DNA of 60,823 bases from IMG/VR virus record IMGVR_UViG_3300021957_000035, positions 1 through 60,823 of that record. The stretch is one strand, 5' to 3'. Position 1 is the stretch's first letter, and each line of letters opens with the position of its first letter. Source of the stretch: a virus. This document shows positions 1,870 to 59,256 of this stretch, one piece after another. The translations under genes were made by a program, and so were the position numbers. The notes below the pieces were generated by a model. The model ran no database searches and was not told the DNA's origin. It worked only from the letters and a program-made list of their open reading frames with translations.

Positions 1870-1920
1870 AATATTTATTTCCTCTTGGATATATGTAAAT
1901 TAAGTTTTATTTGAACAATT

Positions 1921-1940
1921 GTTCTTTAACGTCAGGTATT
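1921..1940 (-). promoter_or_regulatory. SP6-like phage promoter, copy 1
   Basis: On the minus strand the sequence is AATACCTGACGTTAAAGAAC. It matches the other five copies and aligns base for base with the SP6 core: TGAC, six bases, then GAA, with G as +1 (about 1924). It lies in the gap between the 76-residue gene and SSB and would drive SSB and genes across the circular junction. Confidence 0.75.
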
Positions 1941-1942
1941 TT

Positions 1943-2173
1943 TTATTTAATAATATCAACTAGTTCATCGATATTATCATCGTACATTTCCATGTAAAAG
2001 TCGTCATCAGACTCATGCATGTTTACACCAGAACACATGGCACCAAAACCGTCTTCAAATACATCAGTAACAGTTGCAGTTGGTATTTCTGGCATTGTTT
2101 CAAAAGCTTTTATTCGGATAATGCTACCTTCTTTAAGCAAAGGCAAAGTCCGACTTAAGGACGTCTCTGACAT
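1943..2173 (-). CDS. Hypothetical protein (76 aa)
   Basis: No family recognised. The N-terminal half, with KEGSIIRI and TATVTDVF, looks like a small beta-barrel (SH3-like) fold. The C-terminus is acidic. It overlaps the end of the T7-like RNA polymerase gene by 41 bases, so it is translationally coupled to it and belongs to the same transcript. An association with polymerase regulation is possible but rests only on position. Confidence 0.55.
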   Translation of the reverse strand: MSETSLSRTLPLLKEGSIIRIKAFETMPEIPTATVTDVFEDGFGAMCSGVNMHESDDDFYMEMYDDNIDELVDIIK

Positions 2174-4286
2174 TTAAGTTTCCTTTCTCTGGAATTAAAT
2201 CTTCTGAATCTAGTTGCTGCAGAATATTCTCAAGAGGCAAGCTCTCATAAAGTTCTACAAACTTTTCTCTAACATGATAAAACATCTTATCCATGTTACC
2301 TGCATGACAACCAAAAGAGTCATGTACTACAGTAGTTGGATAGTCTGCATCATGTATACACATAGTTAAGTGTACAGCATCAAGACTATGAACCACATTA
2401 GGTGCAGCACCAGTCTTCTGTTTAGTTTCATTTACAGTTGTTTCTTCCCACACTTGAAGCTGTACTTTAAGAATATCTTCACCGTACTTAAGCTCTGTGC
2501 GCTTATTAGTAGGCTTTCGATAGGCTTGTACAACAGGAAATCCAGTAACAGGGGAAATCCAACTCATATGAACTTTCTTCTTGTTAGCTCTCTCTGCTAA
2601 ACTCTGAAACATCTTAAGTAGCTTTGCTGGCCCCTTAAGCTCTTCATAACAGGTCTTATACACCAGAGCGCCAAGGAGTGCGCCCCAGAGATGCTCTTTG
2701 TCTCTTAGATAGGTAGATATATCTCTAGTGTCTTCTATTACCTGCTGGCCCATACCGTAGGACGTACCACCATAGCCTAGAGTCATTACATTTCTCTTAA
2801 CAGTCTTACGTTGAATTTTCTTATCTTGAATATTCAACCAGTATGTCGGAAATAATTTTTCTCGTAGGTCACGGTTTTGATTACGCCATGTTTGAGCAGT
2901 CTTAAAGGCTACAGACTTTCTTTCAGACTTATCAGGGGCAGTTTCATATTCTCTTTGAAGACTAACAGCTGTTTTAAATACTGCATCAAATTGGTTTTCA
3001 ACAGAAGTATCTCGTTTACGTTCTAAGTTTTCCCATACCTTTTCTGCTATAAACATATAAACATCTCCAGGCAACTCACTTGGAACAAGATTTACTAAAG
3101 GTGCTACTTCATCGTCTTGAGACATAGCTACAAGGTGTTGAACGCCGTTATTAGAACCATCAATGTAAACTGGAAGACAAGAAGGAAAGTCTTCTATATT
3201 TCCCTCCCACTCTGTTAACATTTTAATTTCATAACAAGCGGCAAGAAAGCTAAATGGTTTATCTGCTTTCATCCAGTCAGTGCTTGTCATTGGGTTTGTA
3301 GCATACTCAATAAACGTTTTTGCATTGTCTATTACAAACTGTACTCGATCATCTAGACTTACTTTGTCATTACCCCAAATGTTTGCAGTATGAACATAAA
3401 GCCAATAAACACCGTTTTCCCCTAGCGGTACAGGTTCGTCTAGCATTAAGATGCCTTTAGCATTGTCACTAGACTGCTCATGTAAGAACGCTGTATTAGG
3501 GTAAATACGGCCTCGGAAGTCGAGGTTATACAAGTGATAGAAAGGCTTGCCTACGTGCTTCTCTGCAAGTCTCTGAATAGCTTCTGCTTCAATGATTAAC
3601 GAGGCCCGTTTAATCGGATCAATCTCTTTAGTAAATTTAAAGGGATTAACTTCAGAGTGCATACACGCTTTGTACGTATCAAATACAAAGTTATTAATAC
3701 GCCAACCTGTATGATTAAGTCTATTAAGAGTGTCTACAATATAAGTCATATCACTATTTTCAAAGTGATTTAAAGCTGCTTCGTAGCCTTTTTTAATTAC
3801 ACTTATACCTGTTACTTCGTGATACGGGTCTTTATGCCAGTTTTCAGCAGGTGTGTTAACTGGAAACATATCACATTTCTCAATGTCTACTAAGTCCATA
3901 AGCTCTTTAATAGCTTTCCAGTCTTTAGCAAACAAGAAATAAGATCTATGCTTATCTTTTTTACCGTTTTTATAAGTATGTTTTTTACGATAACCTAGTA
4001 TACCTAACTCAATGTAGCTAATAATTACAAACCAACCACCTTGAACGTCTAGTACACTATTTTGTTTTTGTCTAAGTTTTTGTCTAAGTCGTCTGCCAAT
4101 ACTAGATGCGACTTCTACTAGAGTTGCTTTTCTCTCTAACCCTTTTAGTATGTGTGAATAAGAAAATTCAATAATATCTCTAGGTGACATTGTGTCTAAG
4201 AAACTTGCGGATTGTCTCTTATCTAATGATTTTTGTCGATATTCCAGATCTTCAGTTAATAGGTCTAGAATGGTTTTTTCTTCCAT
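2133..4286 (-). CDS. T7-like single-subunit DNA-directed RNA polymerase
   Basis: All signature motifs of single-subunit polymerases are present, numbered from the ATG at 4284-4286: DFRGR (D256), motif A DGSNNGVQH (D376), motif B KRNVMTLGYGG (Y505), motif C HDSFG (H655, D656) and the C-terminal foot SDFAFA, identical in type to T7 gp1. At 717 residues it is shorter than T7 (883), mainly in the N-terminal promoter-recognition region. A TTG nine bases upstream of the ATG is in frame, but AAAGGAAA is too close to it, so I prefer the ATG. It is the natural partner of the six SP6-like promoters. It lies in the early block and is preceded by a terminator and a possible host-type -10 element. Confidence 0.97.
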   Translation of the reverse strand: MEEKTILDLLTEDLEYRQKSLDKRQSASFLDTMSPRDIIEFSYSHILKGLERKATLVEVASSIGRRLRQKLRQKQNSVLDVQGGWFVIISYIELGILGYRKKHTYKNGKKDKHRSYFLFAKDWKAIKELMDLVDIEKCDMFPVNTPAENWHKDPYHEVTGISVIKKGYEAALNHFENSDMTYIVDTLNRLNHTGWRINNFVFDTYKACMHSEVNPFKFTKEIDPIKRASLIIEAEAIQRLAEKHVGKPFYHLYNLDFRGRIYPNTAFLHEQSSDNAKGILMLDEPVPLGENGVYWLYVHTANIWGNDKVSLDDRVQFVIDNAKTFIEYATNPMTSTDWMKADKPFSFLAACYEIKMLTEWEGNIEDFPSCLPVYIDGSNNGVQHLVAMSQDDEVAPLVNLVPSELPGDVYMFIAEKVWENLERKRDTSVENQFDAVFKTAVSLQREYETAPDKSERKSVAFKTAQTWRNQNRDLREKLFPTYWLNIQDKKIQRKTVKRNVMTLGYGGTSYGMGQQVIEDTRDISTYLRDKEHLWGALLGALVYKTCYEELKGPAKLLKMFQSLAERANKKKVHMSWISPVTGFPVVQAYRKPTNKRTELKYGEDILKVQLQVWEETTVNETKQKTGAAPNVVHSLDAVHLTMCIHDADYPTTVVHDSFGCHAGNMDKMFYHVREKFVELYESLPLENILQQLDSEDLIPEKGNLNVRDVLKSDFAFA

Positions 4287-4345
4287 ATATGTCAATTTCC
4301 TTTAGTTAGGGCATTAAGCTATTGCTTCCCTTATGAGGAACTTTA

Positions 4346-4413: not shown

Positions 4414-4443
4414 TCTTTCAAAAAAAAAAAAAGTTTTATTAAA

Positions 4444-4468
4444 CCCCCACCCCCGAAGGGGTGAGGGG
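4444..4468 (-). terminator. Strong intrinsic terminator before the RNA polymerase gene
   Basis: On the minus strand a GC-only stem closed by a TTCG tetraloop (CCCCTCACCCC-TTCG-GGGGTGGGGG, one bulged base) is followed by TTTAATAAAAC and a long T run. It follows the HTH gene (4476-4727), so it should end that transcript or attenuate entry into the polymerase gene. Confidence 0.85.
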
Positions 4469-7654: not shown

Positions 7655-10600
7655 TTATCTACCTTTGTAGTTATTTTCTTTGTTGGTTGCATTAACCCCT
7701 GCAGAAATAGTAGGTAGCATTTTAATAATTTCTTGTCTTGTTTGGCGAGATACGTCACCACTAATTGACAAGTTAACTACGTTTTGTTGCTTACTGGTAT
7801 TGTCTTGATATGACTTAACTTTATTAGCTGGAACAACTAATTCTCCTGGAGTTAACATTGCTGGAACACTATCTACCCCTGCTTTAGAGTAAGGAGTTGA
7901 AGGTACTATACCTCCGTTATTCATAAATAGACTTAACCCTGTAGAAATTAAACCCAGCCAGCCGCCGCCACTGGCACCGCCTGAACCGCCTGAACCGCCT
8001 TGAGGTTTAAGTAATGAGTCAAGTCCTAATTTTAACGACTTACCTAACCCCCCAAAAAAATCAGGAATTTTACCTATCATACCTAATAGACCTCCACCGT
8101 CACCAGTATCAGCTGTTAACCCTTGGACACCGTTTTTAATAGAACTAATTATACTACCAAAAAGACCACCTTCACCAAATAAAGGAGAAGTAAGTTCTTC
8201 GCCTTCTTTAGCCATAGGAGAAGCTTCACCTCCAAAGCTAGCTGCACCACCACCTAATTTTTGTAGTTGACCCATCATACCTGTAGAAGTATATTCTCCT
8301 TTATCTTCTTCTATAGTGCCAAATAAACTATCTGTAAAACCTTGGCTAAAAGAATTTAAATAATTTTTAGTAAAGCTATCTATTAAGTCAATTTGCATAA
8401 AGTCGCCAGTTTGCAAAGCTTCTCTAAATCCTGTTTGGAAATCATCTTTTATGCCTTGAGCAAAAGTTGCACCTAATGCCATTTCTCTTGCAGATAAAGT
8501 TAGTCCTTTAATAGCTTTTGCAACTCCATCTACAGCTTTATTTGCTCCTTTAGCTGCTATTTCTATTTCCTTTTTAAGAGCAATCTCTTCATTTTGTAAA
8601 GGAATTAATCTTTCGTTAATTAAGGCTTGAGCTCCAAGAGAATCATTCAGTACTTCAATATCACCATTAGCTTTTGCAGTTGTTTTTTTGGCGTCTTTAA
8701 GTTTATTTTCCCAATGATCTATTTCTTCTTGAACTCCTTTTAATTGCTGTTCTAAAGGACTAAGCTTTAGTTTAGGTTCTACAGCTGCCATGTTACCCAC
8801 AGGTATATTTAAACGAGAGTTGCCTGTGCCTTGTTGAAATCCTGCAACCATTCCGCTATTAATAGCTTCAAGTATAGGTCTAAACTTAGAAGTTTGTTTT
8901 GCATTTACAACAAATTCTTTATTAGAAAGCATAGCAGGAATTTTGTCGTCAGTAGGACCACCTTCACCTGTTACATAACCTCCTGTTGCAAATTTATTTG
9001 CTTCAAAAGATTTTTTCATTGTGTCTTTAAGACCAAAATTATTATAAAGAAATTTTACTATAGCTGCTTGGGATTTACCACCAATTGTTTTATTACCTTC
9101 TAAAAAAGCTTCATAAAATTCTTCAAACTCTTTAAGTTCAGTTACTTCTAATGAATCTTTAAAAGCTTCAGGAGTTAACGTACCTGATATCATAGACCCA
9201 GCCATATAAGAAGTTTGGCTAGCTCTTAAAGTTTTAAGAGTATCTTCTATATCAGCTAATGAAGTTTGTTTTAGAAAGCTATTTGCGTCAGCTTCTAAAA
9301 CGGTTCTATTAATCCTAGAAGGCCAAGAACTTATATAGTCGTGATCAGTTTTGCCATGACCTGGATTTTCTTTAGCCATATTTAAAAATTGATTAACATG
9401 TCCATATTCATGCAGCCCAACATTATACGCTTGTAAAAACTCATCAAGGCTGTCTGTTAACTTAGGTTCTTTTGTTTGTATGTCTAGAAAAGGGCTATCA
9501 AGAGTTTCATAATACTTTGGAATAACTTTTCCCTGCCAAGTATTATCTATGCTAGTAGATTGAAGACCTACTTTTTCTCGTCCAGAGGGTCTTTGAAATG
9601 ATTCTCTAACTAAGTTATAATGTCTCAACAAATAGTTTAAATCATAACCAGAAGCATCTATTGCTGCTTGACGTTTTTGTTCTTTATTTAAAAAAGATAA
9701 ATCTATTTTACTAAATTTATTTTTAAACGAATCAAAATCAGTAAAATCTAAACCACTTCTCATAGTTGAGTAATTAGAGGGTGCTATCATAGGATGACCA
9801 CGATCATCGTGAGTAGCTTTCTTTTCAAACATATTTAAATCTCTAGCATTACCCATATAGGTTCTATTACCAGAAAGTAAATAGTCTAAGCCACCCATAG
9901 CAGTATACATTGTACCACCAAGTAGCCCATAAAGCGCCGCTTGTACAGGTATACTAGATAAACCTAAACCAGTTTTAACAACACTTGAACCAAATCCAAG
10001 TGCTCCAGACAACAATTTTTTTGGATCACGATTAATTGTTCCTAATACTATATTTCCAAGTCCTTTAAAGGTTCCTAATATAGTTGAACTTAAACCTTTA
10101 AGCGCACCAAATGAAGCACCATACGCTGCACCTTCCGGTGCTAACGGCAAACCATTAAAGAAAGCTTTTCTAAGCTCCGGACCAAAACCAGTAATGTCAT
10201 CCCCTTTAGGTCCATAGAGTCCTTTTTCCCAACCTCTAACAAGTGGACGGTATTGATCAGATTTCCACCTACCACCGCCGCCAATTGCAGCACTAGCAAG
10301 ATTTGCAGTAGTCATTAATGCTTTAGGAATTGTTCTTAATCCATCATATTCAGGAAAATCTATTCCTAATTGCTTAGAAAGAACTGATAATCCTTTGTAA
10401 AATCCGTCAGGGCTATTATATGCATCTTTAGTACTTTTAAGTGTGCCTCTGCGAATTAGATGTTCTTGAATTGCATTAATATTACTTGGGTTTGTTCCTG
10501 TTTCTTTATTAACTAGCTCTATTAATTCTTTTAAAGAATTTTCATCTTTAACATTAATGTTAAGAGCAGGACTTAAATCAGGAGCGTGTTCATTTAAATA

Positions 10601-13600
10601 GTTAAGAACATCACTATCTTTGTCTCCCATAACTTTTTCAAAATAATCTTTACCAGTAAAATTAATACCTGCTATTGCTTTAAGTTTAGCTGCTTCTTCT
10701 CCGCTCATAAATTGAATTAAACTCAAAGATGAAGCACTTAATCCTCCAAAAATAGCTGATTGTGGACCTCCAAGCCCTCCTCCGCTTTTAAATTGAGGTA
10801 CTTGACCTTTATTTAAGGCGTCCATAAAACTAGGACCAAACTTTTTGACCGCAGACGCTTGTACTACATATTCTCCATTAGACAACATGTGAGGTATTTT
10901 ATCGTCTTTTGGACCGCCAGCACCAGTAATCATACCTCCTGATGCCTTCTCCCCAAAGTGAGGAGAAGCTATATTATTTAAATTATTTTGGCGACGTTGA
11001 GCAGCAACAAGTGAATCAAGAAGAACGCCTTCAAAACTAGTAACTGATTCAGCAGTTTCCTTAAAAGCTTTATTTGCTATTAATAGATTAGTATTAAAAT
11101 CAGAAAACTCTGAAGTAACTTGGTTTAACTCTGCTTCTAATTCAGGAATCTTTAATAAATCAATTTGAGTTTGTATTTGATCAATTCTTTGTTGAGCATT
11201 AGCGTCATCACCAACAAAATCATTATTAAGTCTATCTTTTAATCTAGTAATTGATTCTTCAAACCCAGCTTCTCTTTCTTTAGCTTTATCTAAGCGTTCC
11301 TGAAGAGTGGTAATTTGTTTTCCTGCAAGTATTTTCTTTTGTTCGTCTGTCTTTTCAGCAGGAGTAAAGAAGTCTTTAATACTTTTAAAAGTTGTACTAA
11401 TCAGGTTTCCTATGTAATCAATAAAAGAAAGTGCTGCTGATCGAACTTCTGGTGACAAAAATGCGCCAGCAATAGCTCCAATAAGAGTACCTCCAATTGC
11501 GCCAATTAAACCGCCTATTGGACCTGCAACACCTGTTCCTAATAATGCACCTGTTTGCCCTCCTACAAAAGCACCAGATAAAGTTTTACCGTAAGCTTCA
11601 GCTTCTTTTTCGCCTAATCCTGCGGACTGTAACGTAAAAGAAAATATTTCACCTAAAACTAATCCTTTAAAAATTGTTTTTATTGACGTAAGAAGAATTT
11701 TTTTGCCTAAATCTATTAAGTCATTACCAAAAAGAGCACCCGCTAGTCCACTAATAACATACCTAGCAGGTTTAAAACCAACCATCGCTAAAGGTATTGC
11801 AAAAGCTAAAGCTCCTACAAATGCATCTGCAAATTTTGCTTCAAAATCTAAACCAGGAAAAATACCTTCAATAATTCCATCTCCGACTGCTGCCAGAAAA
11901 GCACTTAGATCATTTACAAGACTAGAAGCACCTTTTTGATCTCCTCCAATTATTATGTTTCTAACATCAATTGTAATATCTTTAAAAAAGTTTTTAATTT
12001 TATCTTGATATTCTTGGTCAGAATCAGTACCTTTTATAAAAAGTTCAAATCCCCCAATAGCAAGAAGAACTGGAAGCCCTCTGCTAAACCCAGCTTGGAT
12101 GACGCTAACAAAAGCAAGACCCGCACCAATGGCTGCAAGTTGTAATGCAGCGCCTGTAGTTTCAGGGAATGTTATTGCTAAACCCAACCCTGTAGCAGCA
12201 GCAGCAAGAAGATATTTATTATCTTCTAAAAAGTCAAAAGATTTTTCTATACTACCTGGAGTTTTAATTTTAACTCCTGCTTCTAAAAAGAATTCTTGTC
12301 CAAAAAGATTACTTTCTATCTTTTCAATTTGATCTCTTATTTTCCCAGAAAGATCTGTGTTAGCCTCTGGAACAAGGCCTTCTATGAAACTTTGTGCGTT
12401 TTTGCTTTTCTCATTTAATCCAAGTATTTTTTCTATTTCTGCGTAATACTTTTTTAAACCTGTAGTTGTTCCCTCTAAGATACCTTCGTAGCTTCCAAAA
12501 CCTTTTATAGTTGCTTGAATAGAAGAAATTACTGATGCAACAGTATCGCTAATACTCTTAAACAAAGGTGCAATAGTTTCTGTTAAATTTAAAAGCCTAG
12601 CTATTGCTTCTCCGCTAAACTCAGTTATTTTATTTAAAAACTTGTCGAATAAACCTATTTCAGATTCGACTTCTTGAGATGTAAAAGAAGCTGGAAGAAT
12701 TTTTGCTCCGAATTCTGGAACTTTTTTTATTTTTATTTCTTCGCCAAATAATTCATTAAATAAGCCTTTAATATTTTTTACAAAAGTTAAAACAACTTGT
12801 CCAGCCTTATTAAAGTTGCTTTCAAAACTTTCTGGCAAAATAAATTCTTTAAAAAACTTTGAAAAATCAAATTGATTTGTAGTTTCATCATAAAATTTAT
12901 CAAATGATATTATCTCTTTAGCTTTTAATAAAAACGCGTCAAAATTTTCTTGAAGATTTTTTTGCGCAGTCGCTGGATTAAAATCTATACTAAATATACT
13001 TGTTAACGGGGCAAATAGCTCTTTAACACTATTTATAAAAATTCTAGCTTCTGCTCTATATAATAAAAAAGATATTTTAGCATTGTCTGTAAAAAACTTT
13101 AATGCATTAGTAACTCTTTCAATACTTCCAATAACTATATTAGACCAGCCAGTCTCTCTTGCAATTAAAGATAACGCTTCTTGAAGTCTAAATCTTAAAG
13201 CATTACTAACTGAATCTACTGTCTTTTCAATTAAAGTAAACTCTTGAGCAATTTCTGGAGCAGCTTTTTGAATAGATTTTAATACGGCTTCAGTTGTTAG
13301 CTTACCTTCTGCAGCTGCGTCTCTAAGCTGACCAAAAGGAATACCAATACCATCAGCAATAGCTCTAGCAATACGAGGTGTTTGTTCTAAAACAGAGTTA
13401 AGTTCTTGCCCTCTAAGTTGACCTGAAGCTAAACCTTGACCAAATTGAACAATGGCTGCTCTAGCAGACTCAGAAGAAGCACCAGAAATAGTAACAGCTT
13501 GGTTAATTGTTTTTGTAACATCTAAAAGTTCTTTTGCGCTAGTGCCGCTTCCTCTTAAGGCTAAACCAAATCTATTAAAAGTTTCTGCCGTAGTGCTAAA

Positions 13601-13903
13601 CGAGACTCGTGTCTGAGATGATACTCGTGCTAAAGATTGAAAAGTAGAGTTTAATTCCCTACCTCTGCCAGTAACAAGAGCAATTTTATTTTCCATGTTA
13701 GTAATAGAGTCAGACGCTCTTGTAATGCCTTTTGTAAAAGATGCAAGGCTTAAAAACGCTGCACCTCCAATAGCTATTTTATTAAAAGCGCTTTGTAATC
13801 TTTTAGTAGACTGCTCAATATTACCAACAGATTTTTGTAACTTACCTAGATCTTGTCTAGCTTGAGTACTGTTACTGCGTACTCTAATTTCTACTCCACT
13901 CAT
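7655..13903 (-). CDS. Tail tape measure protein with embedded metallopeptidase-like motif
   Basis: The 2,082-residue protein starts with the conserved tape-measure domain: a coiled N-terminus, then ELLDVTKTINQAVTISG and RGQELNSVLEQTPRIARAIA near residues 130-180. A hydrophobic central part follows. Three copies of a GG-x-V...GGP-x-DDKIP-x-ML-S-x-GEYVV unit occur near residues 985, 1640 and 2000. HEYGH at 1498-1502 with LEADANSF (Glu 1537) forms an HExxH-type zinc metallopeptidase signature between two of these units. Tape measures set tail length and enter the envelope at infection; this one implies a tail of up to roughly 300 nm if fully extended. A strong AGGAGG precedes the ATG. It follows the gpG/gpT chaperones and the tail completion gene, as usual. 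Confidence 0.93.
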   Translation of the reverse strand: MSGVEIRVRSNSTQARQDLGKLQKSVGNIEQSTKRLQSAFNKIAIGGAAFLSLASFTKGITRASDSITNMENKIALVTGRGRELNSTFQSLARVSSQTRVSFSTTAETFNRFGLALRGSGTSAKELLDVTKTINQAVTISGASSESARAAIVQFGQGLASGQLRGQELNSVLEQTPRIARAIADGIGIPFGQLRDAAAEGKLTTEAVLKSIQKAAPEIAQEFTLIEKTVDSVSNALRFRLQEALSLIARETGWSNIVIGSIERVTNALKFFTDNAKISFLLYRAEARIFINSVKELFAPLTSIFSIDFNPATAQKNLQENFDAFLLKAKEIISFDKFYDETTNQFDFSKFFKEFILPESFESNFNKAGQVVLTFVKNIKGLFNELFGEEIKIKKVPEFGAKILPASFTSQEVESEIGLFDKFLNKITEFSGEAIARLLNLTETIAPLFKSISDTVASVISSIQATIKGFGSYEGILEGTTTGLKKYYAEIEKILGLNEKSKNAQSFIEGLVPEANTDLSGKIRDQIEKIESNLFGQEFFLEAGVKIKTPGSIEKSFDFLEDNKYLLAAAATGLGLAITFPETTGAALQLAAIGAGLAFVSVIQAGFSRGLPVLLAIGGFELFIKGTDSDQEYQDKIKNFFKDITIDVRNIIIGGDQKGASSLVNDLSAFLAAVGDGIIEGIFPGLDFEAKFADAFVGALAFAIPLAMVGFKPARYVISGLAGALFGNDLIDLGKKILLTSIKTIFKGLVLGEIFSFTLQSAGLGEKEAEAYGKTLSGAFVGGQTGALLGTGVAGPIGGLIGAIGGTLIGAIAGAFLSPEVRSAALSFIDYIGNLISTTFKSIKDFFTPAEKTDEQKKILAGKQITTLQERLDKAKEREAGFEESITRLKDRLNNDFVGDDANAQQRIDQIQTQIDLLKIPELEAELNQVTSEFSDFNTNLLIANKAFKETAESVTSFEGVLLDSLVAAQRRQNNLNNIASPHFGEKASGGMITGAGGPKDDKIPHMLSNGEYVVQASAVKKFGPSFMDALNKGQVPQFKSGGGLGGPQSAIFGGLSASSLSLIQFMSGEEAAKLKAIAGINFTGKDYFEKVMGDKDSDVLNYLNEHAPDLSPALNINVKDENSLKELIELVNKETGTNPSNINAIQEHLIRRGTLKSTKDAYNSPDGFYKGLSVLSKQLGIDFPEYDGLRTIPKALMTTANLASAAIGGGGRWKSDQYRPLVRGWEKGLYGPKGDDITGFGPELRKAFFNGLPLAPEGAAYGASFGALKGLSSTILGTFKGLGNIVLGTINRDPKKLLSGALGFGSSVVKTGLGLSSIPVQAALYGLLGGTMYTAMGGLDYLLSGNRTYMGNARDLNMFEKKATHDDRGHPMIAPSNYSTMRSGLDFTDFDSFKNKFSKIDLSFLNKEQKRQAAIDASGYDLNYLLRHYNLVRESFQRPSGREKVGLQSTSIDNTWQGKVIPKYYETLDSPFLDIQTKEPKLTDSLDEFLQAYNVGLHEYGHVNQFLNMAKENPGHGKTDHDYISSWPSRINRTVLEADANSFLKQTSLADIEDTLKTLRASQTSYMAGSMISGTLTPEAFKDSLEVTELKEFEEFYEAFLEGNKTIGGKSQAAIVKFLYNNFGLKDTMKKSFEANKFATGGYVTGEGGPTDDKIPAMLSNKEFVVNAKQTSKFRPILEAINSGMVAGFQQGTGNSRLNIPVGNMAAVEPKLKLSPLEQQLKGVQEEIDHWENKLKDAKKTTAKANGDIEVLNDSLGAQALINERLIPLQNEEIALKKEIEIAAKGANKAVDGVAKAIKGLTLSAREMALGATFAQGIKDDFQTGFREALQTGDFMQIDLIDSFTKNYLNSFSQGFTDSLFGTIEEDKGEYTSTGMMGQLQKLGGGAASFGGEASPMAKEGEELTSPLFGEGGLFGSIISSIKNGVQGLTADTGDGGGLLGMIGKIPDFFGGLGKSLKLGLDSLLKPQGGSGGSGGASGGGWLGLISTGLSLFMNNGGIVPSTPYSKAGVDSVPAMLTPGELVVPANKVKSYQDNTSKQQNVVNLSISGDVSRQTRQEIIKMLPTISAGVNATNKENNYKGR

Positions 13904-17143: not shown

Positions 17144-18262
17144 TTATGAGTGGAAGACTGGCAAAATGCCCAAGTTCAGTGCGCTCATTTTACGAGTCCA
17201 AGATGCAGAAGCAGCATAAGTTGCGTTTGTAGCAAATGCGTTAGTTGCGCCTGACCAGTCATAGCCCATTGGGTGCATGATAAAGCCGTAACGATACCAA
17301 ATATTAGTTGAACCGCCACCAGTGTAAGAAGCCGCATTACGGTCTACTTCAACAGGAGTTGGAACATTTACAGGAGCAGAAGTAATTGAAGCTGGTTTAA
17401 TCAAGAAAGAACACTTAGTTGAACGAGCATTCAAGTCGCCTGAAGCAGCACCTGAAATCATTTGGTTTGCACGAGTCATAACCAAACGGAATTTTCCACC
17501 AAACACGGTTTGGAACTCAAGGTTGCCATCTTGTACACGAGTTTCGTCTACCAAGTTAGCAGCACGCATTTCAGCCATTGTTTCAGGTGAAGTTACGAGA
17601 TACATAAAGTCAGGTTCGTAGTCTTTGAAACCCATACCCAACGCTTTAAACAAACGTTCACCACGAGCAGCACCCGTAGCAGTTGAGTCAAACAAAGCAC
17701 GCTGATCAGATGCGCCTGTTGCAGCAGCACCAAATTCACCAAGTGCGTTAATGTCTACAAAGTGACCAGTGTTAGCAGCATCGCCATTTGTGTCAAATGC
17801 AATGTAACCACCTGCGCCTGAACCACCTTTGTCACCAAGAGTAACTTCGCTAAGTGCTACACCTTTAAGGCAAGACAACAAAGCATTACCTTCGTCATCA
17901 CCGCGTACTTGTGCAAAGTCACGAGCAATTTTGGCAAGACCATCTTGGCGTGAAACTACTTCTTGCAAATTAACTTGTTGCGCACCAAATGTACGAACAG
18001 TTTTAACGTAATCTGCAATGTCAGTTGTGATATCAGTGTAAGTACCATCTGTTGCACTTGACAGCGATGGAACGTTGATGTTAGCTGAAAGTGGCTTGTA
18101 GTAACGGAACTGACCAATAAAAGATTCGCCGTTAGCATTAATATCGTCACGTTGCCCTACAATACCTGAAGAATTTAGTTTCTTTTCAGTTGTGTATGCT
18201 TCATCTGCGTAAGCAGAGATAGCCAACGCTACGTTTTGAAAGTCTGTATTTGTAATAGCCAT
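17144..18262 (-). CDS. Major capsid protein
   Basis: The 372-residue protein follows the scaffold gene by 29 bases and begins the usual series of connector and tail genes. It starts MAITNTDFQNVALAISAYAD and has the alternating beta/alpha composition of an HK97-fold shell protein, with conserved-looking TFGAQQVNLQEVVSRQDGLAKIARDFAQ at about residues 89-116 and a C-terminal YGFIMHPMGYDW segment. Codon use is more GC-rich than in its neighbours, consistent with high expression. A separate scaffold means no protease is needed, and none is seen. Confidence 0.85.
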   Translation of the reverse strand: MAITNTDFQNVALAISAYADEAYTTEKKLNSSGIVGQRDDINANGESFIGQFRYYKPLSANINVPSLSSATDGTYTDITTDIADYVKTVRTFGAQQVNLQEVVSRQDGLAKIARDFAQVRGDDEGNALLSCLKGVALSEVTLGDKGGSGAGGYIAFDTNGDAANTGHFVDINALGEFGAAATGASDQRALFDSTATGAARGERLFKALGMGFKDYEPDFMYLVTSPETMAEMRAANLVDETRVQDGNLEFQTVFGGKFRLVMTRANQMISGAASGDLNARSTKCSFLIKPASITSAPVNVPTPVEVDRNAASYTGGGSTNIWYRYGFIMHPMGYDWSGATNAFATNATYAASASWTRKMSALNLGILPVFHS

Positions 18263-18291: not shown

Positions 18292-18966
18292 TTAATAATT
18301 AAAACTACCTAGTTGCCCTTTGGCAGCAAGATTTAACACTTCTTGTGTTGACATCTCACTAAGTGGTTTGTTTTCATTAGTGTTTGAGACACCTGCTGGT
18401 GCCGCTGTACCCGCTCCTGAGTTAGCTTTAACTCGAAACAGGAATGAGTTATCTTCATTATCTGAGTAAGAGGTAATAAAGTCTTGAATAGTAGTGCCTG
18501 ACTTATGAACCCAACTACCGTTGTCATTCTGAACAAGTTGCTCAACAATATCACGGTAAGCTAGTTGACGACTACGATCATTGCGGAAATCTAAACTACC
18601 AAGCAATGAGTTAACAACGCTATCTCGATTTAACTTAGTATTCTCTTCTTCGTAGACTTTTAGTTTAGCTTCAAGATCAGCAATTTTCATTTCTGATAGT
18701 TCTTGAAGTTTTCCTTCTTCTTCGAGCCGCTTCATCGTTTCTTGTTTTTGTTGTTGTTCGATTTCAGCAGCTTTCTTAAGAGCCTCGTCTCGCTCTTTAG
18801 CCATGCGGTCAACATTAGACTTCATTTTAGAAAGTCTATTGGCAACCTCTTGTTCAATTGGATCAACCGTTTCAGATGTTTCCTCCTGAACATTTTCTTG
18901 TTCATTAGTCTCATTGGACTCTGTTGCAGTTACTTCTTCTTCAACTACTGTATTTTCTTCACTCAT
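18292..18966 (-). CDS. Capsid scaffolding protein
   Basis: The 224-residue protein has a disordered, acidic N-terminus rich in Glu and Thr, then a long coiled coil (about residues 45-115: RLSKMKSNVDRMAKERDEAL and so on), and ends with a short, possibly capsid-binding C-terminal region. This composition and its place immediately before the capsid gene are typical of scaffolding proteins that guide procapsid assembly and leave before DNA packaging. Start ATG with GGAAAA upstream. Confidence 0.85.
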   Translation of the reverse strand: MSEENTVVEEEVTATESNETNEQENVQEETSETVDPIEQEVANRLSKMKSNVDRMAKERDEALKKAAEIEQQQKQETMKRLEEEGKLQELSEMKIADLEAKLKVYEEENTKLNRDSVVNSLLGSLDFRNDRSRQLAYRDIVEQLVQNDNGSWVHKSGTTIQDFITSYSDNEDNSFLFRVKANSGAGTAAPAGVSNTNENKPLSEMSTQEVLNLAAKGQLGSFNY

Positions 18967-19051: not shown

Positions 19052-22000
19052 CTATGGCCCGATACCATACCAGTCCTGCCCGTCTTTGAGCGGTGCTAGT
19101 ATGTCTTTTCTTGTTATTTTATTAGGAGGGTCAATAAGACCCTGATCTTTAGCTTCTTTAAGAAGCCTTTGGTAAGTTCTATAAGACATTCCTTGTCTGC
19201 GCATTTCTCTAAGGGTTTTTCTTATAGTATCGCCTTCTAGGGCATCTGCATAGATGGTCCTTAAAGCATCTTTTGCACGTCTTGCTTCACCTATATTAGT
19301 AAAGAAAGCATCGTGAATTGTTCCACTGTCTACGTTATTTTTACGCGCCCATAAATGAAAGCGCCTAACTATAACAGCATCGTTACTGTGGTTTCCATTA
19401 ACACCTAATCCAATCCTAGCATCATTAAGAGAGCCTTTACCTAAAAGCTTTCCGTCTTCAGCGCTGGATTCGTATATGTTAGATATTTTTCTGTTTGTAA
19501 CCGGATCTCTAAATTCAATACGCTCTTGAATTTTAGGACGGTATCTTTGTGTCATTATCTTGCCATCAAATGTAACCCACGGAATATCAACTTTTTGAGT
19601 TTCTTCAACGTAGGCTTTAGCAACTTGTTTCCAATAATTAATAAAATTATCAGTAACAGGTGCTCTATCAGCAAGATTTTTAGACATAATTCTAGATATT
19701 TCTGAGAACTCTTTTGGCCCAATAATACCCCTGCGAGCATTAGTAAGCTTATTAACAAAGTCACCAACATCAGGGTGTATATCTTGAGCTTGTTTTAATA
19801 GTGTACGACCAACAGGTTCGTTTTTATTAATTAACTCTAAGAGTTCGCTGCGAAAACTTTTAAGTTCTTCTACTGTACCTGTTGCACCTAATCGTTCGGC
19901 TACTTTAATTTTACCGTCAACAACTCTAAGGTTAGTACCTAGATTATCTTTAGTAACTGTTATAAAGCCTTTTTCGTCAAGTACTTTAGACAACTTATTA
20001 GCCACGTTAGCGGTTTTCGTAGCAGCTCCAGCGCCATAAAATGATACCATGTTTTGAGCTTTGGCTGCTTTAGCAAGATCTTCCCATGTAAGATTAGCAT
20101 CTCTGAGTGCAGGTATTTTAAGAAATTCTGGGTCATTTACTGTATCCATTGCAACTAAGTCATAAAGACGGTTTTTTTGAGTTGTAGCTAAAACATTTGA
20201 AGCTTGCGATACTGCCCTGTCGCCTGTAGAAAGCCCGATGATCTGAGCTCCACTGGATGAGGCATCATTTTCAATCATAAGTTTTGTTTTATAACTAGTA
20301 AGAGGTTTGTCTTGTTTAAGGTGTTTATTTATTCTAGCATATTCAATTGCCATTCTACCCATCTTAGGTACTTCTGGCCCTTCTAAACCCCGTATTAACG
20401 GATGTTCAAGAAACTCTCTTAGACGTCTGTCTCTTTGAGTTTTAGACATCATAATGTTACCTAGCTCAATAATCTTAGATTCATTACGTTTAAATATAGC
20501 ATTACGACCTGCTTGAGTAAGTGCTTCAGTTCCTGGACCGATTAAAGCTCCCATTTGAATTCTAAGTTCATCTAAAGCTTCAGTGCTCATATTAACAGCT
20601 TTACCTGAATTAAGAAAAGGTCTAACTAGTTCGCCGCCCGTAGGTGTAAGATATCCTCTGTGATATACTCGCCCCCTAGAATCAATAAACGCTTGAGTCC
20701 TAAAGTTTTTCCCTCTTTGAGCATGATACTTAGCAGTAGACATAAGTCCATAACCTTGTTCTCCTCGATTTAAAATTTCATGACGAAACTCATTAATACT
20801 GTCATAGTACTTAGATCTCCCTCTAGGATCTCTGAATCTAGCAATATCGTCCATAAACCCGAAGAACTCGTTATCAACTCCATATTCAACATCCATTACA
20901 TGATTAAGCATTTGAGCCATCTCACGATCAATTTGTTTAGGATCGTAATCTGGAAATTTATCTCTAGAGATTAAAGGTACCCCTGTTTCATTACCTCTGG
21001 CATCTACATATGTCTTTTTGTTAGCTTTTACATAAAGTCGATCTCTATCGTAAACAGTTCCAAGTCTTCTAGCAATAGTTACTTTACGTTCTGCTTCTTG
21101 AAGTTTAAGTAAAGTCTTATCTACAACAATTACTTCTCTAGAAATGCTATCTGCCCAACCACCTGAAGCTCTACCTGTATCTAAATCTAAAACACCTCTT
21201 CGAGTCTTACCTCTAAATTGAACTTTAATAAGGCCTTGATCTACCATAAAGTCAAGTATTTTAGATCCTTCTTTATGAAAGTCTTGCAAAGTATGTTTAG
21301 TAAAGGGTATGATATTCTCAAAATCTTTAGAAAATCTTTTTCCTATATTAATAGCTAAAGTATCATAATCAGTAGATTGCCCTGATGCAACTAGTTTAGC
21401 AATATTAGTTAAACTATCTAAAGCTTTTTCATCAAATAATTTAGAAGTAGGTTTTTTGTTTATAATTAAAAACTCAGCATCTAAAAGTCTACGTATAGTC
21501 TCTCTATTACGAGCAGCTAACTTAGTAATCAAAGAGTCAGAAGGTTCAGTTACTAGCTTTTGTAATTTTAAAAGTTTAGCAAAACCAGAATCTTTTTTTA
21601 ATTGCTTAATAAGTCGTTTTTTATTAGGATATTTATCAGTGAACTTTTTAAAATAAATTCTTAATGGCGCTCTGCCTTTAAAGAACATTTTAGTAGCTAA
21701 TTTTTTACCTTCAGTTCTACGCCATGCATCAATAAATCTTTGATCTTTTAGCTGGCTATCAATTAGGTTTTCAAAAGTATAATACTTACCCATAATTTGA
21801 ACTTGAGGTTTGTCTTGAGATAAATAACTAACAAACATTTCAGAACGCTTACGAGATCGTGTATCTAACAGCCTAGAAACGTTTTGAACAGCAAATCTAT
21901 TTTCTGCTCTTAATACAGCCGAAACATCATTCCAAGGTTTTTTATCTTTAGCATAACGTTCAAATACAACTCTTAAGTTTTCAATTACAACAGTTTGTTG

Positions 22001-23407
22001 ATTAACTGAAACTTTGTCATCTAATCCTGCAGCAATGCTTTCAATAAAATCTTTTTCATCTTGTTTAAGAAGTTTAGAATTACGCATAAAGTCAATACGT
22101 TCTTGATACAAGTTAAAATCAGGATCATAAATGTTATTGTTTTTAATTTCACCTGTTAACGGGTCAGCGCTAAAGTTACGTTCATCAAACTCGTTACCTA
22201 CTCTGCGCCTTGAAGCAGTTTTACCTGCAAGACTAGTACCTTTATAGTCTGTTAAAGACATAGTTTTAGAGTAATCATCAGCATCAAGTAAAAACATTTG
22301 CCTTACTAAAGCTTTCTGTTCTGGTGAGCGTAGCATAGAACTAGGGCGTTTAGCTTGAATATCTACTGCTTGCTCTCTAAGTTTTTGTTTAGGTGCAAAT
22401 ATAGCAGTAGCATTAGTAGCTTTATTTCTCAAAGCTTGAATAGACAATGCTTTACCTTTAGGTGTAACATACTGTTCAGCCTTAAGCCTTCCTTGTCTAA
22501 ATAAATTAGCTTGGTCCATTCCTCCAAGAAGTTTAGCTTGAATATCATAAGCTTGACGTTTTAACCATGCTCCGTAAGATTCTACTTTAGGTGCAACACC
22601 TGAAAGCGATTCTTCTTTCTTTTTAGCAAGGTTTGTTTTATTAAGTCTATTAGTGGTTTCTTTTTGAAGCTCTTCTTTAGATTTTAATACAGGCACCAAA
22701 GAACTACGACAATTCCAATGCAAAGGAGGAGTAAAGCGTCTATCGCTAACATCGTAAATCTTTCCATTATGATAAGAACAAATAGGGCTAGTACGGCTAT
22801 CAAGCACAGCAGTAAATACATAGCCTTTAACTACATGAGAATTTGCTTCTACAACTTTATTTAAAGCTGCTGTTTGAGTACTAGTTATAGAAGTTCTAGT
22901 TAAAGTTTTAGCCTGATGTTCAGTAAGCTTAGTAGTTTTAAGCACGTTGTTAATAATATCTTTAGGTGCTTCGCCTTTAGCAAGTCCTGCTTTTACTTTA
23001 GATTGTATTCTAACAAGTTCACCTGATGAAATGTTTTTCATATTTTGAGTAACTGTTTTAACACCTTTAATGTTTGATCCAGTTATTTCAGCAAGTAATT
23101 CTTTACTACGTGGCTTTGAAACCTTATAAAATTTATTTAGTTCTTTGTTTAGATTGTCCGAATGAAAGTCCAGTTGAGACGTTGAAAATTCTTTTAAAGA
23201 ACTAGTTTGATGAGTTAACATTTCTCGACCAAAGCGATTTACTTCAGGAGTAACATCATTAGTTAGTCTCTCTGAAAGAATGTCTCTTAAACGCTTCCTA
23301 TGCCTACGCATAATACGTCTGTTTTGTAACTGTACGCCTTCTTCGTATAATCTTACGTCAGTCATATGATCAACAATACGATCATAAAGTTTTAAATTGA
23401 TATCCAT
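19052..23407 (-). CDS. MuF minor head protein fused to a single-subunit RNA polymerase (candidate virion RNAP)
   Basis: The 1,451-residue protein has two recognisable parts. Residues 165-245 form a MuF-type head morphogenesis domain, with VLDSRTSPICSYHNGKIY (C210) and PPLHWNCRS (C233) in the classic arrangement. Residues from about 760 onward carry the single-subunit RNA polymerase motifs in the correct order: IDSRGRVYHRGYL (D909), motif A ENDASSSGAQII (D1048), motif B KAQNMVSFYGAG (Y1124) and motif C GTIHDAFFTN (H1365, D1366). The region between (250-760) is basic and helical and I recognise nothing in it. The gene sits in the head operon behind the portal, where MuF minor head proteins belong, so the polymerase is probably packaged. 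Phage N4 carries a virion polymerase in a different architecture. Clear GAGGAG ribosome site. Confidence 0.9.
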   Translation of the reverse strand: MDINLKLYDRIVDHMTDVRLYEEGVQLQNRRIMRRHRKRLRDILSERLTNDVTPEVNRFGREMLTHQTSSLKEFSTSQLDFHSDNLNKELNKFYKVSKPRSKELLAEITGSNIKGVKTVTQNMKNISSGELVRIQSKVKAGLAKGEAPKDIINNVLKTTKLTEHQAKTLTRTSITSTQTAALNKVVEANSHVVKGYVFTAVLDSRTSPICSYHNGKIYDVSDRRFTPPLHWNCRSSLVPVLKSKEELQKETTNRLNKTNLAKKKEESLSGVAPKVESYGAWLKRQAYDIQAKLLGGMDQANLFRQGRLKAEQYVTPKGKALSIQALRNKATNATAIFAPKQKLREQAVDIQAKRPSSMLRSPEQKALVRQMFLLDADDYSKTMSLTDYKGTSLAGKTASRRRVGNEFDERNFSADPLTGEIKNNNIYDPDFNLYQERIDFMRNSKLLKQDEKDFIESIAAGLDDKVSVNQQTVVIENLRVVFERYAKDKKPWNDVSAVLRAENRFAVQNVSRLLDTRSRKRSEMFVSYLSQDKPQVQIMGKYYTFENLIDSQLKDQRFIDAWRRTEGKKLATKMFFKGRAPLRIYFKKFTDKYPNKKRLIKQLKKDSGFAKLLKLQKLVTEPSDSLITKLAARNRETIRRLLDAEFLIINKKPTSKLFDEKALDSLTNIAKLVASGQSTDYDTLAINIGKRFSKDFENIIPFTKHTLQDFHKEGSKILDFMVDQGLIKVQFRGKTRRGVLDLDTGRASGGWADSISREVIVVDKTLLKLQEAERKVTIARRLGTVYDRDRLYVKANKKTYVDARGNETGVPLISRDKFPDYDPKQIDREMAQMLNHVMDVEYGVDNEFFGFMDDIARFRDPRGRSKYYDSINEFRHEILNRGEQGYGLMSTAKYHAQRGKNFRTQAFIDSRGRVYHRGYLTPTGGELVRPFLNSGKAVNMSTEALDELRIQMGALIGPGTEALTQAGRNAIFKRNESKIIELGNIMMSKTQRDRRLREFLEHPLIRGLEGPEVPKMGRMAIEYARINKHLKQDKPLTSYKTKLMIENDASSSGAQIIGLSTGDRAVSQASNVLATTQKNRLYDLVAMDTVNDPEFLKIPALRDANLTWEDLAKAAKAQNMVSFYGAGAATKTANVANKLSKVLDEKGFITVTKDNLGTNLRVVDGKIKVAERLGATGTVEELKSFRSELLELINKNEPVGRTLLKQAQDIHPDVGDFVNKLTNARRGIIGPKEFSEISRIMSKNLADRAPVTDNFINYWKQVAKAYVEETQKVDIPWVTFDGKIMTQRYRPKIQERIEFRDPVTNRKISNIYESSAEDGKLLGKGSLNDARIGLGVNGNHSNDAVIVRRFHLWARKNNVDSGTIHDAFFTNIGEARRAKDALRTIYADALEGDTIRKTLREMRRQGMSYRTYQRLLKEAKDQGLIDPPNKITRKDILAPLKDGQDWYGIGP

Positions 23408-25759: not shown

Positions 25760-25848
25760 AACGATTTCTTTCTATTAATAAAAACAATATACATTAAAAT
25801 AAACTTTAAGGTATACTTTAAAGTATATTATAAATAAACCTAGCGGTT

Positions 25849-25868
25849 ATTCTTAAACGTCAGGTATT
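25849..25868 (-). promoter_or_regulatory. SP6-like phage promoter, copy 2
   Basis: Minus-strand AATACCTGACGTTTAAGAAT with predicted +1 G at 25852. It lies about 90 bases before the basic protein and portal genes and should drive the head-tail operon down to the terminator at 7629-7648. Confidence 0.8.
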
Positions 25869-25891: not shown

Positions 25892-25940
25892 CTCTGAATA
25901 GAGACTGTCAGATGTTTAATCTGTCTCTTTGTTATCTTTT

Positions 25941-25960
25941 ATTCTTAAACGTCAGGTATT
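25941..25960 (-). promoter_or_regulatory. SP6-like phage promoter, copy 3
   Basis: Minus-strand AATACCTGACGTTTAAGAAT, identical to copies 2 and 4, with +1 at about 25944. It begins at the last base of the 3TM holin gene and lies 92 bases upstream of copy 2, giving tandem promoters for the head-tail operon. Confidence 0.8.
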
Positions 25961-41959: not shown

Positions 41960-41971
41960 AAGAATCTCCTA

Positions 41972-50886: not shown

Positions 50887-50913
50887 CAGAGCCTTAGCAA
50901 AGTTATTAAGTTT

Positions 50914-50933
50914 ATTCTTAAACGTCAGGTATT
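50914..50933 (-). promoter_or_regulatory. SP6-like phage promoter, copy 4
   Basis: Minus-strand AATACCTGACGTTTAAGAAT, identical to copies 2 and 3, +1 at about 50917. It overlaps the last codons and TGA stop of the methyltransferase gene. It should drive the terminase, basic-protein, fibre and tail-tip genes. Confidence 0.8.
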
Positions 50934-51739: not shown

Positions 51740-51771
51740 AGCTTTCCTATTTGAAAAAAAAAAAATAATAT

Positions 51772-51821
51772 CCCCACACCTCCCCAACCACCCCCGAAGG
51801 AGCAGCTAGAGAGATGTGGGG
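51772..51821 (-). terminator. Intrinsic terminator after the beta-barrel-like gene
   Basis: CCCCACA (51772-51778) and TGTGGGG (51815-51821) close a long GC-rich imperfect hairpin. On the minus strand it is followed by ATATTA and eleven T residues. It lies seven bases after the stop of the 120-residue gene. Confidence 0.8.
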
Positions 51822-53870: not shown

Positions 53871-53893
53871 TTATATCTCTCTTATATAATATT

Positions 53894-53913
53894 ATTCTTT
53901 AACGTCAGCTATA
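53894..53913 (-). promoter_or_regulatory. SP6-like phage promoter, copy 5
   Basis: Minus-strand TATAGCTGACGTTAAAGAAT, +1 at about 53897. Same TGACGTTAAAGAA core as the other copies, with G in place of one C before TGAC as in copy 6. It overlaps the end of the ribonucleotide reductase gene, whose TAG stop forms part of the promoter. Confidence 0.75.
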
Positions 53914-57892: not shown

Positions 57893-58061
57893 CTGCTCCT
57901 ATATGTGCTGTGAATTTAGACATTTCTTGAAACAATAAAAAGAATATAATACTTGTAATAGGATTAACTAAGTGATAACCCATAATTTCTGAGACTAAAG
58001 TAAAGGCTAATAAACCTACACTTACAATCCACAGAGCTACTGCCATTGGTGATACTTCCAT
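57867..58061 (-). CDS. Small membrane protein (64 aa)
   Basis: Two hydrophobic segments (about residues 6-25 and 31-48), then a short acidic tail with His. It overlaps the primase-helicase start by 26 bases and the GIY-YIG gene by one. No family recognised. Confidence 0.55.
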   Translation of the reverse strand: MEVSPMAVALWIVSVGLLAFTLVSEIMGYHLVNPITSIIFFLLFQEMSKFTAHIGADDGDNSHS

Positions 58062-58525
58062 TATAAAAACCTTTTCTTTAATACATTAACATACCTCTTG
58101 GTTTTTGTAGTAGGAAACTCTTTTGGTACAAACCTGATAGCAGCAATTTGTCTATTGTAAAACCTAGGTGTAATATTGTCAGGTAAGTACTCAGTCATAC
58201 AATCAGATAACATTTGTAGATAAGCCTCTGCATAATACAATCCACCTTTAGTTTTATAAAGGTCTACAATCTCAAATCTAAAGTTATCTTTTTTGTACTT
58301 GCCAATATCTTGTTTTAAAGCTTTAGAAGAACCTACATAGGTTTTCCATGTCATTGCTTTACCATAAGTCCTAGACTTCTTTTTACCACCATGCCAAAAT
58401 TGTTTCTTTCCAATATAATATTGTTTAGTAGTTAAATTTTCTATACAATATACAAAGCCAAACCAATCACTAGGATCAAACTTTTTATTATATTCCCAGT
58501 GACCTTTATCTGTTAACATAAGCAT
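58061..58525 (-). CDS. SegE-like GIY-YIG endonuclease-type protein
   Basis: I take the ATG at 58523-58525; a longer frame would overlap the exonuclease gene more. The 154-residue protein has FVYCIENLTTKQYYIGKKQF near residues 22-41 (the GIY and YIG motifs as VYCI and YYIG), WKTYVGSSKALKQDIGKYKKDNF and then a helix with YYAEAYLQM (metal-site Glu). This fits the SegE-like GIY-YIG family of free-standing phage endonucleases. It overlaps the exonuclease by 20 bases. Confidence 0.7.
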   Translation of the reverse strand: MLMLTDKGHWEYNKKFDPSDWFGFVYCIENLTTKQYYIGKKQFWHGGKKKSRTYGKAMTWKTYVGSSKALKQDIGKYKKDNFRFEIVDLYKTKGGLYYAEAYLQMLSDCMTEYLPDNITPRFYNRQIAAIRFVPKEFPTTKTKRYVNVLKKRFL

Positions 58526-59219: not shown

Positions 59220-59236
59220 AGTAGCTCCTTTATATT

Positions 59237-59256
59237 GTTCTTTAACGTCAGCTATT
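59237..59256 (-). promoter_or_regulatory. SP6-like phage promoter, copy 6
   Basis: Minus-strand AATAGCTGACGTTAAAGAAC, +1 at about 59240. It lies just after the 55-residue gene and 20 bases before the exonuclease ATG, driving the replication block. Confidence 0.8.

Follow-up and report, generated by a model that had tools for sequence, protein, structure and literature searches.

A Predicted Single-Subunit RNA Polymerase Fused to a MuF Head Protein, a Candidate Virion RNA Polymerase of Siphoviruses

The MuF-RNA Polymerase Fusion

The IMG/VR virus record IMGVR_UViG_3300021957_000035 was analysed over its whole length of 60,823 bp, which we call the window. One of its genes, in the minus strand at 19052-23407, encodes a protein in which a MuF head-morphogenesis domain is followed by a region that, by its sequence and its modelled fold, is a single-subunit RNA polymerase (ssRNAP) of the T7 class. 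We consider it likely that this protein, hereafter MuF-RNAP, is a virion RNA polymerase of new architecture, which would be anchored at the portal, enter the cell with the DNA, and transcribe early genes, including that of a second, canonical polymerase of the same phage (nvRNAP). The open reading frame (ORF) has no internal stops and begins with ATG, with a GGAG Shine-Dalgarno sequence ahead of it. In the window, it occupies the second place of an operon in the order portal, MuF-RNAP, scaffold, and major capsid.

19052 to 23407, minus strand: MuF-RNA polymerase fusion gene, single unbroken ORF of 1451 aa
23887 to 25458, minus strand: portal protein, operon partner upstream of MuF-RNAP (phrog_145, E 1e-52)
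18292 to 18966, minus strand: head scaffolding protein (phrog_206, E 7e-13)
17144 to 18262, minus strand: major head protein (phrog_247, E 5e-28)
22409 to 23230, minus strand: MuF / SPP1 gp7-type head morphogenesis region, residues 60-333 (phrog_241, E 2.9e-49)
22700 to 23011, minus strand: PF04233 core, residues 133-236 (E 9.9e-15)
19055 to 21490, minus strand: ssRNAP module as modelled, residues 640-1451

The MuF domain, which a first-pass annotation made from the DNA letters had placed in the N-terminal part of the protein, was found there by three families. In addition to phrog_241, PF04233 scored 55.7 bits against a cut-off of 29.6, and TIGR01641 (SPP1-gp7) matched with an E-value of 1e-18 and 67.7 bits against a cut-off of 39.65. 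By this domain score and by its position beside the portal and capsid genes, the protein belongs to the MuF / SPP1 gp7 class. According to PMC5576092, SPP1 gp7 is bound to the portal in 1-2 copies per capsid.

The polymerase region is more diverged. PF00940 was matched at residues 1027-1414 with an E-value of 6.6e-7 (28.9 bits, cut-off 22), and phrog_414 matched the region at 4e-24. The same Pfam family was matched independently by all 59 of 59 homologous C-terminal regions (E <= 0.01). When a profile of these 59 homologues was compared with the PDB sequences, T7 RNA polymerase was found with an E-value of 3e-7, and the stretches of DxxGR, motif A, and motif C were aligned. A single-sequence phmmer search of the whole protein against the PDB gave zero matches, so that T7 RNA polymerase is reached by profile and fold searches only.

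An AlphaFold (AF2) model of residues 640-1451 was obtained with a predicted local distance difference test score (pLDDT) of 84.3. Its best Foldseek match in the PDB was T7 RNA polymerase (E 5.9e-19), and the top 50 matches were all ssRNAPs; a second model covering residues 256-1451 (pLDDT 78) gave the same fold result. In the viral structure library BFVD the best match was A0A7S5FRK7, a protein of 1463 aa that is 68% identical and is evidently the orthologue of phage DSS3_VP1, followed by T7-like polymerases and then by N4-type virion RNA polymerases. The first-pass annotation had claimed a T7/N4-type polymerase fused to MuF and had named structure prediction and profile comparison as checks, with a fold lacking palm and fingers as the outcome that would speak against it. 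Both comparisons agree with the claim: the predicted model has the right-hand ssRNAP fold, and PF00940, phrog_414, and T7 RNA polymerase in the PDB were all matched. By comparison with T7, the polymerase may perhaps begin as early as about residue 490. In the core blocks the identity of MuF-RNAP was 13% to the N4 virion RNA polymerase (vRNAP), 22% to T7, and 26% to LKA1.

Active Site and Constraint

Residue equivalences were assigned by a comparison with T7 and N4 anchored on the motifs. The active site of MuF-RNAP would be formed by the following elements.

20669 to 20683, minus strand: DSRGR, residues 909-913 (T7 D421-R425), with D909, R911, and R913 unchanged in all 59 homologues
20243 to 20266, minus strand: motif A, DASSSGAQ, residues 1048-1055; D1048 corresponds to T7 D537, invariant
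20033 to 20062, minus strand: motif B, K1116 to Y1124-G1125 (T7 K631, Y639, G640), invariant
19379 to 19390, minus strand: HSND, residues 1340-1343, equivalent to HSxD of T7-type polymerases
19304 to 19315, minus strand: motif C, HDAF, residues 1365-1368; H1365/D1366 correspond to T7 H811/D812, invariant

The residues D909 to R913, D1048, K1116/Y1124, and H1365/D1366 were unchanged in the 59 homologues, which are 33-96% identical to the window protein, and H1340, N1342, and D1343 were likewise invariant in this alignment. All five motifs were recognised by pattern in 90 of 96 near-full-length ORFs; the exceptions inspected were truncations at contig ends or had NHMND in place of NHSND. The ratio of nonsynonymous to synonymous substitutions (dN/dS) was 0.03-0.19 for the whole protein and 0.03-0.10 over residues 900-1451, where it was the lowest or nearly the lowest within the protein. 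Since the catalytic residues are invariant and dN/dS is low, MuF-RNAP is apparently a diverged working enzyme rather than a relic.

These results bear on several points of the first-pass annotation. The motif residues that it quoted (D909, D1048, Y1124, H1365, and D1366) are all in place; its view that the protein is no relic agrees with their invariance and with the low dN/dS; and a loss of the motif A and C aspartates in relatives, which it had named as a contrary outcome, was not seen, D1048 and D1366 being invariant in the 59 homologues. It had also described the motifs as having the order and spacing of T7/N4-type polymerases. The order stands, but the spacing does not: the distances from DxxGR to A, A to B, and B to C are 139/68/249 in the window, 116/94/180 in T7, and 139/111/280 in the N4 mini-vRNAP.

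A Second, Canonical Polymerase

The window encodes a separate ssRNAP, as the word "second" in the first-pass annotation had implied.

2133 to 4295, minus strand: canonical T7/SP6-like RNA polymerase, nvRNAP, about 717-720 aa (PF00940, E 8e-88)

This protein was matched to T7 RNA polymerase by sequence (E 4e-62), and it would be the non-virion polymerase of the phage. When 16 whole records were searched with PF00940, 12 had a canonical ssRNAP besides the MuF-linked one (13 of 17 counting the window). The four records without it are all partial (34-54 kb), and every record longer than 60 kb has both.

The fusion occurs in two clades, described below, and between them the core-block identity is 52% for the MuF-RNAPs and 56% for the canonical polymerases. 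This alike divergence fits a co-inherited pair, which was presumably present in the common ancestor of both clades. Within the window the two polymerases have 15% core-block identity, less than that of MuF-RNAP to T7. In a small tree, the canonical polymerases joined SP6 (support 90) and the MuF-RNAPs formed one separate group; the branches are long and the deeper placement is unsafe. A recent duplication of nvRNAP as the origin of MuF-RNAP is disfavoured by the 15% identity and by the separate tree groups, long-branched as these are.

Promoter-Like Motifs and Hairpin Elements

A repeat search brought out a promoter-like motif, TANCTGACGTTWAAGAAYA, with six exact sites in the minus strand of the window and seven matches with up to three mismatches, where 0.33 were expected; a de novo k-mer search of the intergenic regions gave A-rich noise only. 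The sites lie at gene boundaries and are oriented in the coding direction.

25940 to 25958, minus strand: promoter-like site TACCTGACGTTTAAGAATA of T7/SP6 class, the first of two in tandem ahead of the portal/MuF-RNAP operon
25848 to 25866, minus strand: second of the two tandem promoter-like sites, ahead of the same operon
1920 to 1938, minus strand: promoter-like motif downstream of nvRNAP, ahead of a gp2.5-like single-stranded DNA-binding protein gene
50913 to 50931, minus strand: same motif
53893 to 53911, minus strand: promoter-like motif that overlaps the ribonucleotide reductase gene at its 3' end
59236 to 59254, minus strand: promoter-like motif immediately ahead of the 5'-3' exonuclease gene

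The tandem pair before the portal operon recurs in many relatives. In DSS3_VP1 (L081, L160) the motif has diverged to ATAGGKTRCGTTAAAG, with 13 copies, and a pair is again found upstream of the portal gene. The window motifs resemble the SP6 promoter, and AATTAGGTGACACTATAGAAG occurs in SP6. Because of this resemblance and of the grouping of the canonical polymerase with SP6, the motifs may be assigned to nvRNAP as its putative promoters. Since they precede its operon, MuF-RNAP is probably a late product, and the operon position together with the late-type motifs fits packaging of the protein. No exact copy of the motif was found directly upstream of the nvRNAP gene in the window.

A different kind of element is located upstream of nvRNAP.

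4420 to 4467, minus strand: hairpin (4444-4467), 11 nt, and a run of T13 ahead of nvRNAP; either a candidate early promoter or a terminator
51754 to 51815, minus strand: second hairpin with a T12 tract upstream of small genes; candidate early promoter or terminator

The coding strand of the window has two tracts of 12 or more T, each behind a hairpin, where 0.06 were expected. The 50-mers containing the hairpins have energies of -20.8 and -24.0 kcal/mol, and 0.15% of random 50-mers reach -20. In both clades, the genomes whose nvRNAP upstream region was read have a stable hairpin, a gap of 8-17 nt, and a T tract, mostly T10-T24, with seven T (T7) in DSS3_VP1 and L186; the arrangement is also present in L184, L201, L202, L206, L207, and L208. 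One or more further copies are usually found elsewhere in the same genomes. A standard terminator scan flagged 51773-51820 as terminator-like and left the element upstream of nvRNAP unflagged. These elements may serve the virion polymerase as promoters, or they may be terminators. It is possible, although we would sooner doubt than accept it, that the two ssRNAPs form a closed cascade in which MuF-RNAP starts at the hairpin plus T10-T24 elements, these being hairpin-type promoters independent of those of N4.

Distribution, Introns, and Inserts

Two clades can be distinguished by sequence, one Naomviridae-like and one EBPR-siphovirus-1-like. The roseophage isolates DSS3_VP1 and DSS3_PM1 (host Ruegeria pomeroyi DSS-3) encode a full-length orthologue 62% identical to the window protein, and many IMG/VR relatives at 63-98% identity complete this naom-like clade. 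With such an orthologue and a late-gene order like that of DSS3_VP1, the window groups with the Naomviridae-like phages. The second clade is formed by EBPR siphovirus 1, whose MuF-RNAP is 29% identical to that of the window, and 48 IMG/VR contigs; here the polymerase part is about 33% identical. In both clades, DSS3_VP1 and EBPR siphovirus 1 included, the gene adjoins the portal gene and belongs to an operon of portal, MuF-RNAP, scaffold, and capsid. By a motif A pattern search, at least 549 IMG/VR stretches encode the polymerase part. In the annotated phage collection, end-to-end matches to this region were found only in DSS3_VP1, DSS3_PM1, and EBPR siphovirus 1, the others being ordinary phage RNA polymerases with weak E-values. 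A prophage source was also considered. The pattern search of 84,980 species genomes, limited to the MuF and linker stretches, gave generic MuF matches only, a weak negative in which members could be missed.

The gene of EBPR siphovirus 1 is interrupted inside motif B, where the upstream exon closes with KAQNMV and the reading frame continues with FYGAG. The interrupting sequence is a group I intron with an HNH ORF; it scored 40.5 bits (E 1.9e-8), less than the curated Rfam threshold of 50. More group I introns, with scores above the Rfam threshold, were found in relatives within this clade. The second exon ORF of L125 and L129 spans motif B to TIHD and so breaks off at motif C; five group I matches fall in the MuF-RNAP gene region of L159.

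L082, 23179 to 23405, and L112, L114, L120, L125, L129, L131, L151, L157, and L159: group I introns of EBPR-clade MuF-RNAP genes, at motifs B and C as well as at other places

Self-splicing introns tend toward highly conserved sites, and their location at motifs B and C therefore supports constraint on the catalytic motifs.

Some relatives have in-frame inserts. One of about 125 aa (GESHT...HEFYED...MGNDH) lies between MuF and the linker in L069 (10748-11155), L055, and L107; no Pfam match was obtained with the L069 copy, which we take to be possibly a TraB/ChaN-like domain. Between DxxGR and motif A, inserts of about 145-150 aa occur in L134, L147, L148, and L155, in at least two mutually unrelated versions, with no convincing Pfam match for those of L134 and L155. 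An intein reading of these two was rejected, as there was nothing supportive in the sequence and no Pfam domain.

The window carries siphovirus genes, among them that of the tape measure protein (7655-13903), which is a gene of its own, unfused to an RNA polymerase. In DSS3_VP1 a DNA polymerase I gene lies between those of the RNA polymerase and the exonuclease; none was seen among the window ORFs tested. Its place in DSS3_VP1 would fall beyond the window ends, so that the record probably represents part of a genome of about 70-75 kb. The isolates DSS3_VP1 and DSS3_PM1 have deoxyuridine DNA (dU-DNA) and its enzymes (PMC12697855). A link to dU-DNA was considered and gained no support: the deaminase and phosphatase families of DSS3_VP1 had no match in the window, which is incomplete, or in 10-11 related records, the deaminase search being without a positive control.

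Two further observations concern other regions of the window. A GIY-YIG SegE-type endonuclease ORF in the minus strand at 58061-58591 (PF19835, E 3e-30), possibly a homing endonuclease, overlaps the 5'-3' exonuclease gene (58506-59219). At 39680-45985 there are two long, highly repetitive ORFs; that of 1337 aa matches many tail fibre families and that of 759 aa matches no family.

Proposed Cycle and Alternatives

Among readings that bring together the MuF domain, a polymerase with its active site intact, an operon of late type, and a second polymerase, the virion-polymerase cycle is the simplest. Late in infection, nvRNAP would transcribe the portal / MuF-RNAP / scaffold / capsid operon from the tandem T7/SP6-class promoters, and the MuF domain would dock a few copies of MuF-RNAP onto the portal inside the procapsid. 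At infection these would travel down the long tail together with the DNA, presumably in unfolded form. In the new cell MuF-RNAP would transcribe the first genes, that of nvRNAP included, and nvRNAP would then take over the middle and late genes, among them the next MuF-RNAP. Computation gives the fusion, its predicted fold, a conserved active site under strong purifying selection, the place in the operon, the co-occurring second ssRNAP, and the repeated promoter-like motifs; packaging is suggested by the homology to MuF proteins, and ejection, polymerase activity, and the promoters read by either enzyme are inferred. In N4 and P23-45, a virion RNA polymerase transcribes genes that include the later polymerase or its cofactors (PMC4496689, PMC10770324).

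Three points weigh against the proposed cycle. A protein of about 160 kDa would have to pass the narrow tail tube of a siphovirus, for which it would need unfolding. Sigma-70 scans found no enrichment either way, the matches near nvRNAP and in the small-gene region being those expected by chance, and the promoters of MuF-RNAP are still candidates. Lastly, the motif-B arginine (T7 R627, N4 R666) is Ala1112 in the naom clade, with a conserved Lys at 1113. This arginine, four residues before the lysine, is commonly conserved in ssRNAPs and was not taken as defining; in the sister clade it is mostly Arg, with Arg in two of the three members shown by position and Gln in L137.

The packaged polymerase could instead serve mainly to pull the genome in by transcribing it, early expression being secondary or the work of the host polymerase. 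The proposed position at the portal would suit such a motor; the P23-45 vRNAP has been hypothesised to transcribe during genome translocation (PMC10770324), and early products of N4 are needed for genome entry (PMC4496689). However, the phage has its own second ssRNAP and repeated promoter-like motifs, which fit a transcription cascade, and genome entry and early transcription can coexist. We regard a primarily motor role as unlikely.

It was also considered that MuF-RNAP is a late polymerase of the producing cell, its polymerase region being freed, for example by proteolysis, or soluble, and never delivered. The gene does lie in a structural operon under apparent late promoters, and a cleavage step is possible. 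Nevertheless, the canonical ssRNAP is a better candidate for the T7/SP6-class motifs, and the fusion has been kept in two clades, self-splicing introns apart, as expected if delivery needs MuF; we find this role decidedly unlikely.

That the polymerase region is an inactive relic, retained for a structural or DNA-binding role in the head protein, seems very improbable to us. The core-block identity to known polymerases is low (13-26%) and the motif-B arginine is replaced in the naom clade, but DxxGR, D1048, K1116, Y1124, H1365, and D1366 are invariant over a wide divergence, the dN/dS of residues 900-1451 is low, and the introns of the sister clade sit at catalytic motifs. An artefact of chimeric assembly or chance motif matches is refuted by the independent isolates DSS3_VP1 and DSS3_PM1; together with EBPR siphovirus 1, the many IMG/VR stretches, and dozens of full-length ORFs, they leave it practically no probability.

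Relation to Known Systems

The known virion RNA polymerases are the giant ejection protein of N4, the multisubunit complexes of jumbo phages, and, in P23-45 and crAss-like phages, polymerases fused to large virion proteins. The N4 enzyme (gp50; Schitoviridae) is like the one proposed here in its ssRNAP fold, in being carried in the capsid, and in acting first, with a later phage polymerase following (PMC4496689, PMC12633501). In contrast, it has about 3,500 aa and unrelated N- and C-terminal domains, no MuF has been reported in it, it has TxxGR instead of DxxGR, and its phage is a podovirus. With 1451 aa, a MuF N-terminus, and a polymerase reaching almost to the C-terminus, MuF-RNAP is not of N4 type and is closer to the T7 type, the tree placement being weak. 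The comparison with N4 drawn earlier thus holds for the manner of working and fails as descent, the core identity of 13% being below that to the T7 type. By class the protein is an ssRNAP joined to a MuF protein, which would work like the N4 virion polymerase and stands outside the N4 family.

Thermus phage P23-45 is long-tailed, with an RNA polymerase fused to a virion morphogenesis protein and a second, non-virion one, as proposed here; unlike MuF-RNAP, its polymerase is a two-barrel enzyme homologous to cellular RNA polymerase and fused to the tape measure (PMC10770324). Duplication has been proposed as the origin of that pair. The T7, SP6, and LKA1 polymerases (PF00940) have the fold and catalytic residues of MuF-RNAP and are not fused to a head protein. 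In these phages the polymerase is first made by the host RNA polymerase.

Fusions of MuF to effectors are found in polyvalent proteins and MuF polymorphic toxins, where MuF is followed by an enzymatic domain for which delivery is presumed; the effectors described (PMC5512222, PMC5576092) include ADP-ribosyltransferases, RNases, and RelA/SpoT. The first-pass annotation was right to name polyvalent proteins joining MuF to other enzymes, which PMC5512222 describes; that survey places virion RNA polymerase modules only in N4-like phages. In the accessible text of the literature searched we found no MuF-RNAP fusion; that search did not take in the first paper on the Naomviridae (Curr Biol 2021) or a related one of 2025 (Nature Microbiology), and a prior mention is possible.

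In the annotations the polymerase is concealed. The gp108 of DSS3_VP1/DSS3_PM1 (Naomviridae, Noahvirus), in the same operon place after the portal and with a separate annotated RNA polymerase gene, is named 'head morphogenesis' or 'minor head protein-like', and its polymerase half is unnamed in GenBank/RefSeq. The same architecture after the portal is found in gp47/gp48/gp49 of EBPR siphovirus 1, where gp47 and gp49 are the two exons; in the annotation these three are a 'head protein', an 'HNH endonuclease', and a 'hypothetical protein', the exons being treated as separate proteins. As a virion RNA polymerase, MuF-RNAP would have an architecture that has probably not been named before. The proposal is testable in existing isolates, and the polymerase region, of up to about 1,000 residues, is a candidate reagent. 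If it is true, placing an ssRNAP on a portal-associated MuF protein would add another distinct way of carrying an RNA polymerase in the virion, one that is widespread in mostly uncultivated phages; the presence of two ssRNAP genes per phage would be explained, and some 'head morphogenesis' annotations would conceal an enzyme that starts transcription.

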